Shown here piece by piece: positions 28,279 through 60,360 of a stretch of 64,000 nucleotides of DNA. The stretch's first letter is position 1. The number at the start of each line of letters is the position of its first letter. The DNA is from Vagococcus hydrophili (GTDB lineage: Bacteria; Bacillota; Bacilli; Lactobacillales; Vagococcaceae). The stretch spans positions 1,736,001-1,800,000 of the forward strand of contig NZ_CP049887.1 of the NCBI RefSeq assembly GCF_011304195.1, in the 5' to 3' direction. A program made the position numbers and the translations under genes. The notes beneath the pieces were generated by a model. It was not told the origin of the DNA. It worked only from the letters and a program-made list of their open reading frames with translations, and made no database searches.

Positions 28279-28376
28279 AATTTGAGTTGAAAGTAGTTAT
28301 TTTTTAAGAATATGAAAAGAATTTTTTAATAAAACTTTTTACTTACTAATTATTGTGATAACATGAGCATGTAAAG

Positions 28377-28389
28377 GTAAGCGGTTACA
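28377..28389 (+). promoter_or_regulatory. Candidate CcpA cre site ahead of the grd operon
   Basis: GTAAGCGGTTACA fits the catabolite-responsive element core (GWAANCGNTWNCA) at every position. It lies 25 bp before the small UGA-containing ORF, and no clear -35/-10 pair was found nearby. Glucose repression of the operon is inferred. Confidence 0.5.
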
Positions 28390-28413
28390 AAATAAAATTG
28401 CGAGGTGATTACA

Positions 28414-28530
28414 ATGTGGACACATTTTACATGACAAAGAAAACATAACGAACACGGTTGTTCAATGGAACAATTAAATAAGACAAAACAGTCAGAGAAA
28501 CAAGGTGACTTTTTGTGCATTTCTACGTAA
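28414..28530 (+). CDS. Candidate 38-residue selenoprotein or Sec-sensing leader
   Basis: ATG 28414 follows GAGGTGATTACA, a strong ribosome site. The frame runs six codons (MWTHFT), hits TGA at 28432-28434, and if that is read as selenocysteine continues for 31 more codons to TAA 28528. After Sec7 the peptide reads QRKHNEHGCSMEQLNKTK, has Cys16 and Cys35 and is basic and polar. A hairpin with a GGT-containing loop lies 15 bases after the UGA, the arrangement of a bacterial SECIS. The next gene is grdX, and the operon encodes three certain selenoproteins. I do not recognise a family. It may instead be a short leader that reports Sec-tRNA supply. Confidence 0.55.
28450..28463 (+). promoter_or_regulatory. 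SECIS-like hairpin in the small ORF
   Basis: GAACA pairs with TGTTC around a CGGT loop. GGT is the ninth codon counting UGA as one. In E. coli fdhF it is the eighth, and in grdB here also the eighth. Confidence 0.5.
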
Positions 28531-28584
28531 TGAAAGCATGAAAAGCCGATTTGTTTGTCTGACTATTTTTTTGGAGGTAAAGAG

Positions 28585-28965
28585 ATGATTTTAGTAACCA
28601 ACAACCCAAAGGTAAGTAAGGAGATTAAGGAAATCCCTGTTTGTTTTTTAGAAGTTGAGTATGGGGACGTTTTTAAAGAAGTTAGGCGACTTATTGTAGA
28701 AGACAAGATGATTCTACTAACACATCCTTTAAGCGGTAGTATCAAGCCAAACGAAACCTACTACAAATCAGTGGTTTTAAAACCAAGTTCGTCAGACTCA
28801 ATAGATATAGAGAGTTTGGATTACATTGATCAGGGCATTGAAGTTTATCAGAAGTTTATGAAAAACAAAATGCGACCTAATTGGACACAAAAAGTGTTAG
28901 AAGATTTTGCTTTTGTGGATTATTACTTGATTAAAGATACCCTAACTCGAATTCCTAACCATTAA
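28585..28965 (+). CDS. grdX: GrdX family protein
   Basis: 126 residues, opening MILVTNNPKV and containing LLTHPLSGSIKPNETYY, which matches GrdX, the small protein of unknown function found at the head of clostridial glycine/betaine reductase operons. I chose ATG 28585 because TTGGAGGTAAAG lies directly upstream. It is 54 bp after the candidate small selenoprotein and 100 bp before grdE. No catalytic motif is evident, and its role (regulation or assembly) is not settled in the family. Confidence 0.8.
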   Translation: MILVTNNPKVSKEIKEIPVCFLEVEYGDVFKEVRRLIVEDKMILLTHPLSGSIKPNETYYKSVVLKPSSSDSIDIESLDYIDQGIEVYQKFMKNKMRPNWTQKVLEDFAFVDYYLIKDTLTRIPNH

Positions 28966-29065: not shown

Positions 29066-30352
29066 ATGAAGTTAGAACTAGGAAACATTAAGATTAACCA
29101 AGTTATCAAAAGTAATGAAAATAAAATAGCTGATCATACTCTTTATATTGATGAACAGGCTATCATTGATTTCGTTTTAGAGGATGATCGAATTAGTAAA
29201 TGTACGATTGAAATCGCAAATCCTGGAGATAAAACTAGAATTACACCGGTGAAAGATGTGATTGAACCTAGATGTAAGGTGGACTCAAAAGCAGAAATTT
29301 TTCCAGGTGTGATTGGAAAGATGAGTGGCGTTGGTGAAGGTCGAACTCATGTCTTAAAAGGATGTGCAGTTATGACGGTTGGTAAAATTGTTGGCTTCCA
29401 AGAAGGAATTGTTGATATGACAGGTCCTGGGGCTGAACAGACACCGTTCTCAAAACTAATTAATATTTGTTTAGTGTTAGAACCTACAGAAGGGCTAGAT
29501 CCTCACGTTTATGAAGAAGCAGCTAGATTTGCTGGTCTTAAAGTGGGAAGTTTCTTAGGTAAATTAGGTGAATCGATTGAACCTGATGAAATCACTACAT
29601 ATGAAACAAAACCATTATTAAAACAAATTGAAGAGTTCCCAGATTTACCAAAAGTAGGCTATGTTTACATGTTACAAACACAAGGTTTATTACATGATAC
29701 CTATGTTTACGGAGCTGATGCAAAACACATTATTCCAACAATTCTTTATCCAACAGAAGTCATGGATGGAGCGATTTTAAGCGGAAACTGTGTGTCTGCC
29801 TGTGATAAAAACACAACCTATCATCATTTAAATAACCCAGTGATTCATGACTTATATAACCGTCATGGTAAAGATATTAACTTTATGGGCGTTATTATTA
29901 CCAACGAAACCGTTTATTTAGCAGACAAAGTAAGATCTAGTGATTTTTCAGCTAAATTAGCCGAATATCTAGGCTTAGATGGGGTCATTATTACTCAAGA
30001 AGGTTTCGGAAATCCAGATACCGACTTAATTATGAACTGTAAGAAGATTGAAGAAAAACAAATTAAAACAGTGATTGTAACCGATGAATATGCTGGTCGT
30101 GATGGCGCAAGTCAATCATTGGCGGATGCTGATCCATTGGCGGACGCAGTAGTTACAGGTGGAAATGCCAATGAAGTTATTGTCTTACCTCCAATGGAAA
30201 AATTAATCGGTCAATTAGATTATGTGGATGTGATTGCGGGTGGGTTTGATGGTAGCTTACGTGAAGACGGAAGTATCGAAGTAGAGCTACAAGCCATCAC
30301 AGGAGCAACGAATGAAATCGGATTTAACTTAACCTCAGCTAAAGGTTATTAA
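29066..30352 (+). CDS. grdE: Glycine reductase component B, subunits alpha/beta proprotein GrdE
   Basis: A 428-residue proprotein of the substrate-specific component PB of glycine reductase. The self-cleavage site is present: Asn241-Cys242 in LSGNCVSACDKNT. In the family the Cys becomes an N-terminal pyruvoyl group that binds glycine as a Schiff base. With GrdB it presents glycine to selenoprotein A for reduction to acetyl phosphate and ammonia. AGAGGTGAGAGA precedes the ATG, and grdA1 follows 26 bp later. Confidence 0.93.
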   Translation: MKLELGNIKINQVIKSNENKIADHTLYIDEQAIIDFVLEDDRISKCTIEIANPGDKTRITPVKDVIEPRCKVDSKAEIFPGVIGKMSGVGEGRTHVLKGCAVMTVGKIVGFQEGIVDMTGPGAEQTPFSKLINICLVLEPTEGLDPHVYEEAARFAGLKVGSFLGKLGESIEPDEITTYETKPLLKQIEEFPDLPKVGYVYMLQTQGLLHDTYVYGADAKHIIPTILYPTEVMDGAILSGNCVSACDKNTTYHHLNNPVIHDLYNRHGKDINFMGVIITNETVYLADKVRSSDFSAKLAEYLGLDGVIITQEGFGNPDTDLIMNCKKIEEKQIKTVIVTDEYAGRDGASQSLADADPLADAVVTGGNANEVIVLPPMEKLIGQLDYVDVIAGGFDGSLREDGSIEVELQAITGATNEIGFNLTSAKGY

Positions 30353-30378: not shown

Positions 30379-30846
30379 ATGTCTTTAGATAATAAAAAGA
30401 TTGTTGTCATTGGTGACCGAGACGGTATACCAGGCTTAGCAATCGAAACGTGTTTAGAAGGCACATCAACTGAAGTAATCTTTTCTTCAACTGAGTGTTT
30501 TGTCTGAACGGCAGCAGGTGCAATGGACTTAGAAAATCAACGTCGTGTCAAAGAAGCGGCTGAAAAATACGGAGCAGAAAATGTCGCCGTATTAATCGGT
30601 GCAGCAGAAGGTGAAGCAGCAGGACTTGCTGCAGAAACTGTGACAAACGGAGATCCAACATATGCCGGTCCATTAACCAATGAACAGCTAGGTTTAGCTG
30701 TCTACCATGTAGTCGAACCAGAATTCAAAGCATTCGTCGATGAAGCAGTTTACGAAGACCAAATCGGAATGATGGAAATGGTCTTAGACGTAGACGATAT
30801 CATTGAAGAGGTGTCGAGCATTAGGAAAGAATATTCGAAGTACTAA
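30379..30846 (+). CDS. grdA: Glycine reductase selenoprotein A, copy 1 (UGA = Sec43)
   Basis: 155 residues when TGA at 30505-30507 is read as selenocysteine. The redox motif is [13 protein letters not shown] (Cys40, Sec43), the hallmark of GrdA. The carboxymethyl group from glycine is carried as a selenoether on this residue before transfer to component C. Without readthrough only a 107-residue C-terminal piece (from 30523) would be called. AAGGAGGCAATCTT precedes ATG 30379. It is almost identical to copy 2 at 33701; I count two silent differences (codon 34 ATC/ATA and one GGT/GGA). Confidence 0.95.
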
Positions 30847-31047: not shown

Positions 31048-32349
31048 ATGGCTAAATATAGAGTAGTTCATTATATCAATCAATTCTATGCTGGAATTGG
31101 TGGAGAAGAAAAAGCAGATATTAAACCAAGCACAAAAGCTGAAATCGTTGGACCTGGAATTGCTTTTAAAGGTGCTTTAGGTGAAGACGTAGAAATCGTA
31201 GGAACAGTTATTTGTGGGGATAGTTATTTTAATGAAAATTTAGACTCAGCTTTAAAAGAAGTCATGGAAATGATCGCTTCATACAAACCGGATTTAGTAA
31301 TTGCTGGACCTGGATTTAATGCGGGGCGTTACGGAATGGCTTGCGGGGCAGTTACTAAAGCAGTTATGGAAGAAATGAACATTCCAGCTGTAACAGGTCT
31401 TTATGAGGAAAATCCTGGAACTGATATGTACAAAAAAGATGCGTACATCGTTCAAGTAGGAAACAGTGCAGCAACTATGCGTAAAGCTGTTCCTGTTATT
31501 GCTAAATTAGCTCTTAAATTATTAAACAAAGAGATCGTTACTCCAGAAGTAGACGGCTACTTTGTTCGTGGACGTAAAAATTATGAAATGGCTGATCGTG
31601 GTTCAAAACGTGCTGTTAATATGCTCGTTAGTAAATTAAAAGGCGAAGATTTTGTGACAGAATACCCAATGCCAGAATTTGACAATGTGGAACCGGGGCA
31701 ACCAGTGAAAGACATGAAACATGCCAAGATTGCTTTAGTAACATCTGGTGGTATTGTGCCTAAAGGAAATCCAGACCATATTGAATCAAGTAGTGCATCT
31801 AAATTTGGTAAATATGATATTTCAGGAGTCACGGACTTAACAGAAGCAACTTACGAAACAGCTCATGGTGGTTATGACCCAGTTTATGCCAATCAAAATG
31901 CGGATCGTGTCTTACCAGTGGACGTTTTACGTGAATTAGAAGAAACGGGAGAAATTGGCGAAATTTATCCTTATTTCTATACAACAGTTGGTAATGGAAC
32001 ATCTGTTGCGAATGCTAAAAAATACGCAGCTGAAATTGCCAAAGATTTGGTGAGAGATGGTGTAGATGCCGTTATATTAACATCCACCTGAGGTACCTGT
32101 ACTCGTTGCGGTGCAACGATGGTTAAAGAGATTGAAAAAACTGGTATTCCAGTGGTTCATATTTGTACAGTCGTGCCAATTTCACTAACAGTTGGGGCAA
32201 ATAGAATTGTTCCAGCAATTGCGATTCCTCACCCACTTGGTAACCCAAGCTTGGATGAAAAAGAAGAGAAAAAACTTCGTATGAAATTGGTTAAAAAAGC
32301 GCTAAGTGCGTTAGAAACACCAGTTGAAGATCAAACTGTTTTTGAATAA
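31048..32349 (+). CDS. grdB: Glycine reductase selenoprotein B, subunit gamma GrdB (UGA = Sec348)
   Basis: 433 residues when TGA at 32089-32091 is read as selenocysteine. The motif is STUGTCTRCGATM (Sec348 followed by CxxC-type cysteines). It is the gamma subunit of component PB, whose selenocysteine attacks the Schiff-base-bound glycine from GrdE. Conventional calling splits it at 32091 into a 347-residue protein and a false gene at 32119. A perfect 6-bp hairpin with a GGT loop follows the UGA. AAAGGAGGAAAAAA precedes the ATG. Confidence 0.95.
32104..32118 (+). promoter_or_regulatory. SECIS hairpin of grdB
   Basis: CGTTGC pairs perfectly with GCAACG around a GGT loop, beginning 12 bases after the UGA. 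GGT is the eighth codon counted from UGA, as in E. coli fdhF, where the loop GGU binds SelB. Confidence 0.7.
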
Positions 32350-33700: not shown

Positions 33701-34168
33701 ATGTCTTTAGATAATAAAAAGATTGTTGTCATTGGTGACCGAGACGGTATACCAGGCTTAGCAATCGAAACGTGTTTAGAAGGCACATCAACTGAAGTAA
33801 TATTTTCTTCAACTGAGTGTTTTGTCTGAACGGCAGCAGGTGCAATGGACTTAGAAAATCAACGTCGTGTCAAAGAAGCGGCTGAAAAATACGGAGCAGA
33901 AAATGTCGCCGTATTAATCGGAGCAGCAGAAGGTGAAGCAGCAGGACTTGCTGCAGAAACTGTGACAAACGGAGATCCAACATATGCCGGTCCATTAACC
34001 AATGAACAGCTAGGTTTAGCTGTCTACCATGTAGTCGAACCAGAATTCAAAGCATTCGTCGATGAAGCAGTTTACGAAGACCAAATCGGAATGATGGAAA
34101 TGGTCTTAGACGTAGACGATATCATTGAAGAGGTGTCGAGCATTAGGAAAGAATATTCGAAGTACTAA
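33701..34168 (+). CDS. grdA: Glycine reductase selenoprotein A, copy 2 (UGA = Sec43)
   Basis: The same 155-residue protein as copy 1, with TGA at 33827-33829 as Sec43 in [13 protein letters not shown]. Similarity to copy 1 begins at the start codon: the ribosome sites differ (here GGGAGGAAGACAG). It continues past the stop into the first bases of the downstream repeat. Near identity with only silent differences suggests a recent duplication or ongoing gene conversion. A second copy may raise the amount of GrdA, which is needed in excess over the other components. Confidence 0.95.
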
Positions 34169-60145: not shown

Positions 60146-60214
60146 ACTTTAAAAGTGTTGTCATACACAAAGTAATATGTTAATATCGACACATAGATTG
60201 AAAAATTTAATTAT

Positions 60215-60360
60215 TTAGATGGAACTTTGGTGAAATTCCAAGACGGTCCCGCCACTGTAATAAGCAGATTGCTTTAAGTCAGGTCTTTCTAATAAATTAA
60301 ACTTGGTACTTACTGTTCCGTGGTAGATCAGTGGGAGTTAGGAAACCAAAACGTAACGTT
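60215..60360 (+). ncRNA. Cobalamin riboswitch (EutX-type leader RNA)
   Basis: Core motifs appear in order: GGTGAAATTCC, the B12 box GACGGTCCCGCCACTGTAA (60242-60260) and AAGTCAGGTC (60275-60284). A CAGTGGGA at about 60330 could pair with the B12-box region. It stands between the adenosyltransferase and eutG, the place of the Enterococcus EutX/Listeria Rli55 RNA, and is followed by an ANTAR element. Confidence 0.9.

Follow-up and report, generated by a model that had tools for sequence, protein, structure and literature searches.

A UGA-containing leader ORF before the glycine reductase operon of Vagococcus hydrophili and its relatives, a candidate attenuator that senses selenocysteine decoding

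Ahead of the glycine reductase operon of Vagococcus hydrophili lies a short reading frame that is interrupted by a UGA after six codons. Does this frame encode a small selenoprotein, or is it a leader whose translation controls the operon behind it? The initial annotation left the choice between these two readings open. We analyse the question in a window of 64,000 nucleotides (contig NZ_CP049887.1), by which we mean the whole stretch of DNA under study, taken from a host genome that is a single contig of 3.05 Mb. Positions are those of the window, and all parts of the leader and of the operon described here are on the + strand.

The layout proposed for this leader in the initial annotation is correct to the base. 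A ribosome-binding site, GAGGTGA (28402..28408, SD score 7), is followed by an ATG at 28414, six codons encoding MWTHFT (28414..28431), an in-frame UGA at 28432..28434 that we predict to be a Sec codon (context UGAC, with C as the next base in 11 of the 13 leaders compared below), and a post-UGA frame (28435..28530) of 31 sense codons that ends in TAA at 28528-28530. If the UGA is translated as Sec, the product has 38 residues, MWTHFTU-QRKHNEHGCSMEQLNKTKQSEKQGDFLCIST. A candidate extended -10-like promoter, TTGTG-A-TAACAT, is found by eye at 28353..28364, with the start site expected near 28371, and the pattern TGTGN-TANNNT is seen by eye 5' of the leader in nine comparison loci as well (L001, L002, L003, L005, L006, L009, L046, L048 and L061). 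A sigma-70 consensus scan of the window reports no promoter on the + strand, and the placement of the leader ORF at the 5' end of a transcript rests on the by-eye promoter.

The assignment of the genes behind the leader to a glycine reductase operon is also right. The first regular gene is grdX (28585..28965; NF038093, E 1.3e-38), with its own ribosome-binding site GGAGG at 28573..28577. It is followed by a grdE-type component B subunit (29066..30352; NF040793, 668.5 bits, under the cut-off of 780 for that family), by grdA (30379..30846) with an in-frame UGA at 30505, and by the 5' part of grdB (31048..32129) with a UGA at 32089 and an Rfam match to SECIS_4 at 32092-32129. Among named records, the closest GrdX to that of the window is from Vagococcus fluvialis, with 82% identity. 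The window has two grdA copies (30523-30846 and 33845-34168) with the same 107 residues after the UGA and an identical UGA context. Elsewhere, at 60193-60341, it carries an adenosylcobalamin riboswitch (98.6 bits).

In bacteria, the SECIS hairpin of a Sec-decoded UGA lies just downstream, and the hairpin with a CGGT loop that had been noted 15 bases past the UGA is present at 28450..28463. It reads GAACA-CGGU-UGUUC, or equivalently GAAC-ACGGUU-GUUC, and its closing C is 21 nt from the U of the UGA, with 15 spacer bases after the stop codon. Counting the UGA as codon 1, the GGT falls at codon 9, versus codon 8 in grdB and in E. coli fdhF, as the sequences confirm; in nucleotides, fdhF has CAGGTCTG at 19 nt from its UGA and the window grdB has C-GGT-G at 20 nt. 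In the leaders of the window's family (f1), the closing C is exactly 21 nt from the UGA in six of seven, the seventh (L006) having a variant hairpin, and in the six leaders of two other families (f5, which includes Atopobacter and Facklamia, and f7) the distance is 16-18 nt from the U. A GGU or GU apical loop is thus found 3' of the UGA at a spacing (21 and 16-18 nt) close to the 19 nt of fdhF. A hairpin loop between C and G is common to all 13 leaders. Read from the alignment, the 8-mer CANGKTTG is present in 10 of them; the departures are L059 and L060, which have CTAGTTTA, and L006, which has GAGC-GGTTGC-GCTC. For the stem we counted 11 leaders, omitting L059 and L060 because their loops differ. 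In these, 90.9% of the stem cells are paired and three of the four pairs show two-sided changes. Shuffles reach the observed number of paired cells in 39/500 cases, the two-sided cells in 8/500, the covariation score in 14/500, and the pair types in 190/500. An Rfam search of 28300-28650 gives no SECIS family at E up to 10, only noise; the grdB element does match SECIS_4.

The SECIS-type hairpin is the minimum-energy local fold in only six of the 13 leaders (L005, L006, L008, L009, L048 and L059), and in the other seven, the window included, a different local fold wins. In the window, the winner is an 8-bp hairpin, GGUUGUUC-AAUG-GAACAAUU (28456..28475), which is mutually exclusive with the SECIS hairpin and has -5.9 versus -2.2 kcal/mol in the folding of naked RNA. 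This competitor is kept, and wins, in the window and in the two species closest to it, and is perhaps a pausing or anti-SECIS element.

We find the same arrangement upstream of grdX in 13 genomes: a ribosome site, a short frame (6-12 pre-UGA codons with the starts used, other starts being possible), a UGA, and a SECIS-type hairpin 16-21 nt on. The carriers are seven of nine genomes with grdX in f1 (L001, L002, L003, L005, L006, L008 and L009), five of ten in f5 (L046, L048, which is the same as Atopobacter L022, L053, L059 and L060), and one of two in f7 (L061). The UGA is present in 13/13 while the peptide diverges, a count to be read knowing that the leaders were collected by seeking a UGA. 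GrdX itself occurs in 9/29 f1 genomes and in 26 of the 395 genomes of an order sample (nine f1, ten f5, two f7 and five f3); family searches around genomes G135 and G109 gave 10/76 and 2/27, and a phylum sample 91/398. Two f1 genomes with grdX and selB have no UGA leader, V. elongatus (L004/L011) and V. acidifermentans (L007/L024); in L004, an ORF with a UGA does occur 286 nt upstream, without a SECIS-type hairpin loop. The leader is found in none of 12 Enterococcus grdX loci (0/5 from the order sample and 0/7 named), in none of the 28 best-scoring more distant loci drawn from the 91 positive genomes of the phylum sample, and in none of four second-copy GrdX loci (L072-L075). About 21 of those 28 distant loci have a glycine-riboswitch sequence by eye, and the loose UGA ORFs that occur there fall inside the riboswitch.

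The carriers have the means to decode the codon. SelB is above cut-off in 14/29 f1 genomes, including all nine with GrdX (at G000:C1:1991648 in the genome of the window), and in 17/17 further GrdX genomes tested, with 2/14 control genomes also above the cut-off (E. coli and M. jannaschii). A tRNA-Sec is above the gathering score in 16/16 genomes tested, including all 13 carriers (at 1977875 in the genome of the window), and also in 5/14 controls. Both selB and tRNA-Sec are thus above cut-off in 13/13 carriers, and in one genome, G025, the leader sits between selB and grdX. The Sec machinery is necessary company of the leader and no predictor of it, since the tested Enterococcus and Facklamia genomes also have selB. 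We consider that the leader UGA is very probably decoded as Sec.

Could such a leader be an accident, a short ORF with an ordinary stop next to an unrelated constitutive attenuator or operon-separating terminator? Taken singly, two of its parts would allow it: the 31-codon open frame by itself has P ~0.12 under a Markov model, no more than expected by chance, and the SECIS-type hairpin is not the minimum-energy fold of the window. The combination is another matter, with 13 leaders at a fixed spacing. Among 65 oriented grdX loci, a match to the 8-mer class lies 40-260 nt upstream in 12, with 0.09 expected, and there are three matches in 491 kb away from grdX; the 8-mer rule misses L006, and the counts favour the motif as it was partly derived from the tested loci. 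This tally of 65 leaves aside second retrievals of the same genomes, four loci on the same contigs as order-sample loci (L018, L025, L027 and L028), a Synergistales MAG (L029) and the second-copy loci L104 and L105; L016 and L026 are Facklamia genomes already counted in it. In three whole genomes, the pattern TGA-N18-CANGKTTG has 29 matches versus 22 for a reversed control pattern, and a stem of at least 4 pairs together with a start codon and ribosome site is found in 3/29, namely the grdX leader of each genome. Because the motif was partly drawn from the same loci, this is not an independent test. A first scan built solely on the known GGU-loop idea finds five of the seven f1 leaders, and on both strands of the 64-kb window it gives seven rows, one being this leader and six covering three other places. 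With the leader unique in three whole genomes and so concentrated before grdX, we regard the explanation by chance as hardly credible.

A looser scan for UGA leaders also took in the selB regions of the 14 selB-positive f1 genomes, the prd region of the genome of the window, and nine grd or sel regions of other families. It returns 31 rows, of which 12 are grdX leaders and 19 are others, mostly with TTG or GTG starts, set aside by eye. The pattern scan of the three whole genomes leaves no UGA leader before another Sec operon. The genome of the window also has, near C1:1.98 Mb (L030, L112), a D-proline-reductase-like cluster in which a PrdB-like gene contains an in-frame UGA, adjoining selD-like, selB and cysteine-desulfurase-like genes (all names except selB assigned by eye); no UGA leader is recognised there in the loose scan.

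If the UGA is decoded, the product could matter as a protein. The initial annotation offered a genuine 38-residue selenoprotein (Sec7, Cys16 and Cys35), which would be the first gene of the operon, and the good ribosome site, the Sec-type UGA and the SECIS-like hairpin all suit this possibility, as does a GCSMEQ stretch common to three close species. The bases that encode this stretch, however, are those of the two overlapping hairpins. Compared with V. fluvialis, the window differs in 10 of its 31 post-UGA codons, nine non-synonymously and one synonymously. Genome G004 lacks one base between the 8-bp hairpin and the terminator described below, which shifts the frame and gives an unrelated tail, NNQNSQRNRVACCAFLLDKYAQ; the shifted frame is still open into the terminator, and the hairpin is kept. 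The other carriers have unrelated post-UGA peptides, of 2-4 codons only in L046, L053, L059 and L060, and among the loci upstream of grdX we see neither protein-level conservation around or after the Sec nor Cys homologues. We reject the selenoprotein on the substitution pattern, the frameshift and the short tails, and consider it very improbable. Frameshifting differences had been named beforehand as a refuting observation, and the one in G004 does count against the selenoprotein; it leaves the reading as a leader untouched.

There is evidence for the frame itself being kept open. In all seven f1 leaders, neither of the other two frames is as long as the post-UGA frame, which has 31-65 codons. 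The openness P values for five lineages, with the window clade counted once, are 0.12, 0.0215, 0.026, 0.078 and 0.013, and combining them by hand with Fisher's method gives ~0.0003. The six leaders of f5 and f7 give no support for openness (P 0.19-0.89). In the window's family, then, judging by these comparisons, what is kept is the openness of the frame and not the peptide.

What the open frame leads into is an element that, like the competing 8-bp hairpin, is absent from the initial annotation, an intrinsic-terminator-like structure at 28490..28572, directly before the grdX ribosome site. It consists of a hairpin (28490-28564) of 30 pairs with -32.7 kcal/mol (z -5.64, 0/200 shuffles as good), followed by an A and a T7 tract. 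Its 5' arm (28490-28523) is inside the post-UGA frame, and the leader TAA falls in its 8-nt loop. A simple terminator scan of the window reports no terminator, presumably because the stem is interrupted. Across three species, 97.8% of the terminator pair cells are kept; in these three sequences there are two two-sided pairs, which is not significant as covariation (105/500 shuffles). The leading edge of a ribosome is ~15 nt past its P site. When the RNA behind an assumed ribosome edge near 28444 is removed, the terminator is the minimum-energy fold, with -39.8, and with the assumed edge near 28540 the terminator is gone (-6.1). By folding, a predicted intrinsic terminator lies between the leader and the first gene and is exclusive with one of the two ribosome positions.

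The terminator-like hairpin provides a concrete mechanism for a leader in which readthrough reports selenium supply, the reading that the comparison supports well. Transcription would start just upstream, and translation of the leader ORF would begin at 28414. The ribosome would then meet two competitors at the UGA (28432), SelB with Sec-tRNA and release factor 2. When SelB with charged Sec-tRNA is present, it would dock on the SECIS hairpin (28450-28463) and the UGA would be read as Sec; the ribosome would then travel to the TAA at 28528, covering the whole 5' arm and the loop of the terminator, so that RNA polymerase would continue into grdX-grdE-grdA-grdB. When selenium or Sec-tRNA is short, release factor 2 would end translation at the UGA, ~45 nt before the terminator; the hairpin would form and transcription would end in the T7 tract, short of grdX. 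Expression of the operon would then be confined to cells able to produce selenocysteine, and other cells would be spared the mRNA for an enzyme that requires Sec in both GrdA and GrdB. The competing 8-bp hairpin (28456-28475) may restrain the insertion of Sec, or it may delay RNA polymerase to let the ribosome catch up, which is the role of the pause hairpin in trp leaders. We put the probability that the window carries such a Sec-sensing leader-peptide attenuator, in which readthrough controls the terminator, at about 0.7. The analysis shows the sequence anatomy, the conservation, the presence of the Sec machinery and the computed RNA folds; from them we infer Sec insertion at the leader UGA, termination in vivo and a response to selenium.

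The relatives appear to keep the sensor, the UGA with its SECIS, and to vary the output, which would be a terminator, coupling, or possibly masking of a ribosome site. A T7 tract after the hairpin is found in the window, V. fluvialis and G004 (z -5.0, -5.0 and -4.9), and L009 has a hairpin with z -5.9 and a T7 at its end. L005, L006 and L008 have hairpins with z -1.9, -3.7 and -2.9 and a weak T tract or none. There is no significant fold before grdX in L048, L059, L060 and L061 (z 0.27, 1.04, -0.09 and 0.48), and L046 has z -2.1. The readthrough frame crosses the grdX start in L006, L048 and L061 and stops 4 nt before grdX in L009, an arrangement suggestive of coupling. L053 has its grdX ribosome site within a stable stem (z -3.56), an output that is possibly ribosome-site masking. 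The idea of a single mechanism is weakest for the four leaders with short tails (L046, L053, L059 and L060). In three of them, the second stop is within the 5' arm of the proposed hairpin, and therefore readthrough would still be expected to open that hairpin. With short tails in 4/13 and no support for openness outside f1, the leaders cannot all act through readthrough to a terminator.

These same short-tail leaders, with almost no post-UGA frame, are where a different use of the hairpin has to be weighed, namely as a SelB operator, with bound SelB-Sec-tRNA controlling translation of grdX and no readthrough of the UGA. The grdX ribosome site buried in the L053 stem (z -3.56) fits an operator of this kind, and a SelB autoregulation system in E. 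coli is mentioned in PMC8124441. An operator of the selAB type has no translated in-frame UGA, and here a started UGA frame is found in 13/13, including the four with almost no post-UGA frame. The operator leaves unexplained both this started frame, with its in-frame UGA at a fixed spacing in every leader, and, in f1, the open post-UGA frame across the hairpin and the T7 terminator. We consider it unlikely.

The six leaders outside f1 (L046, L048, L053, L059, L060 and L061) have a feature of their own, R-U-P at the UGA (CGY-UGA-CCR), extended to R-x-R-U-P in five of them. It possibly reflects a constraint on the nascent chain or on the RNA. One could imagine that these leaders sense termination at the UGA, by the level of release factor 2 or by a tnaC-like arrest peptide, and not selenium, with R-UGA-CCR as the arrest signal. 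An Arg directly before UGA-CCR in all six fits that idea, and UGAC, found in 11/13 leaders, is a poor termination context. Among the f1 leaders, however, the pre-UGA peptide ends in Arg in only one of seven (L005), and termination sensing explains neither the conserved hairpin at its fixed spacing nor why the leaders stand before a Sec-enzyme operon in genomes that decode Sec; we find it quite improbable as an alternative. Under the preferred reading of a Sec-sensing leader, the Arg-U-Pro ends of this group could point to an additional nascent-chain effect.

Textbooks describe attenuators that respond to the codons of ordinary amino acids. In leaders of the trpL and hisL type, formation of an intrinsic terminator ahead of the operon depends on where a ribosome stands on a short leader frame, and the candidate leader would share with them a short translated leader and a terminator governed by ribosome position. 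A conserved regulatory codon for the sensed amino acid is found here too, as the UGA in 13/13 leaders that were selected for a UGA. Unlike in trpL and hisL, the sensed codon would be UGA-Sec with its own SECIS, the logic would be reversed, with abundant charged tRNA letting the ribosome continue and switching the operon on, and a separate antiterminator hairpin would not be needed. The SECIS elements of fdhF and grdB have the same loop type; there, the UGA encodes the active-site Sec of an enzyme, whereas the product here is a non-conserved peptide. In E. coli, Thanbichler and Boeck reportedly described in 2002 an autoregulation of selAB by SelB through a SECIS-like element. A SECIS-like hairpin in a 5' leader that ties expression to SelB and Sec-tRNA would be common to both; selAB is reported to be feedback on the machinery with no decoded UGA, whereas the leader of the window has an ORF with its own start, a UGA in that frame, codons that stay open past the UGA and a terminator-like hairpin, all ahead of a Sec-enzyme operon. 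These building blocks, attenuation and SECIS, are known. We found no description of Sec-codon attenuation in titles and abstracts, a weak absence since most subscription journals were outside the search, and in the accessible part of PMC13188914 "leader" and "attenuat" have 0 occurrences.

A comparison in position is offered by the glycine riboswitch (RF00504), which precedes the grd operon of C. difficile according to PMC11477304 and PMC10880999. It has the same position and target operon as the UGA leader and senses glycine by an aptamer. Among the loci run through Rfam, RF00504 is before grdX in 9/9 from Enterococcus and absent in 5/5 with a UGA leader (L009, L022, L046, L053 and L061), and the window has none at gathering. 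A further type of leader is seen in five loci of one Facklamia-like genus (L047, L049, L050, L051 and L054), ~130 nt before grdX and after a TATAAT box. By eye, it has the form GAAC..AGTGCRRCC-loop-GGYT..GTTC with GCACTRGYGT just before the ribosome site, and AGTGC can pair with GCACT (8 bp in L051) in a likely pseudoknot. It matches no Rfam family at gathering in L047, L049, L051 and L054, with only noise at E up to 10 in L049, and is possibly a novel riboswitch. Also by eye, a ATGTGAAWAAAACACAAT-like motif stands just before the grdX ribosome site in Enterococcus loci (L013, L014, L017, L023 and others) and in L011 and L024, the two Vagococcus without the UGA leader; it is perhaps the operator of a CRP/FNR-type regulator.

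We think it reasonably likely, on these comparisons, that the leaders form a cis-regulatory family in Lactobacillales-type bacteria that measures decoding of the 21st amino acid, in which the contest of SelB-Sec-tRNA and release factor 2 at the UGA sets operon expression through terminators, coupling or ribosome-site masking depending on the species, and that the UGA leader occupies the place that the glycine riboswitch holds in Enterococcus. The grd operon would then have three types of leader in related bacteria, a riboswitch, a UGA leader and the Facklamia element. If this is true, recoding of a stop codon would itself be usable as a sensor, the supply of selenium would act on an energy-conserving selenoenzyme at transcription, before the cell pays for its costly mRNA and proteins, the contest between SelB and release factor 2 in vivo would become measurable from transcript levels, and these bacteria would possess a compact natural selenium switch.
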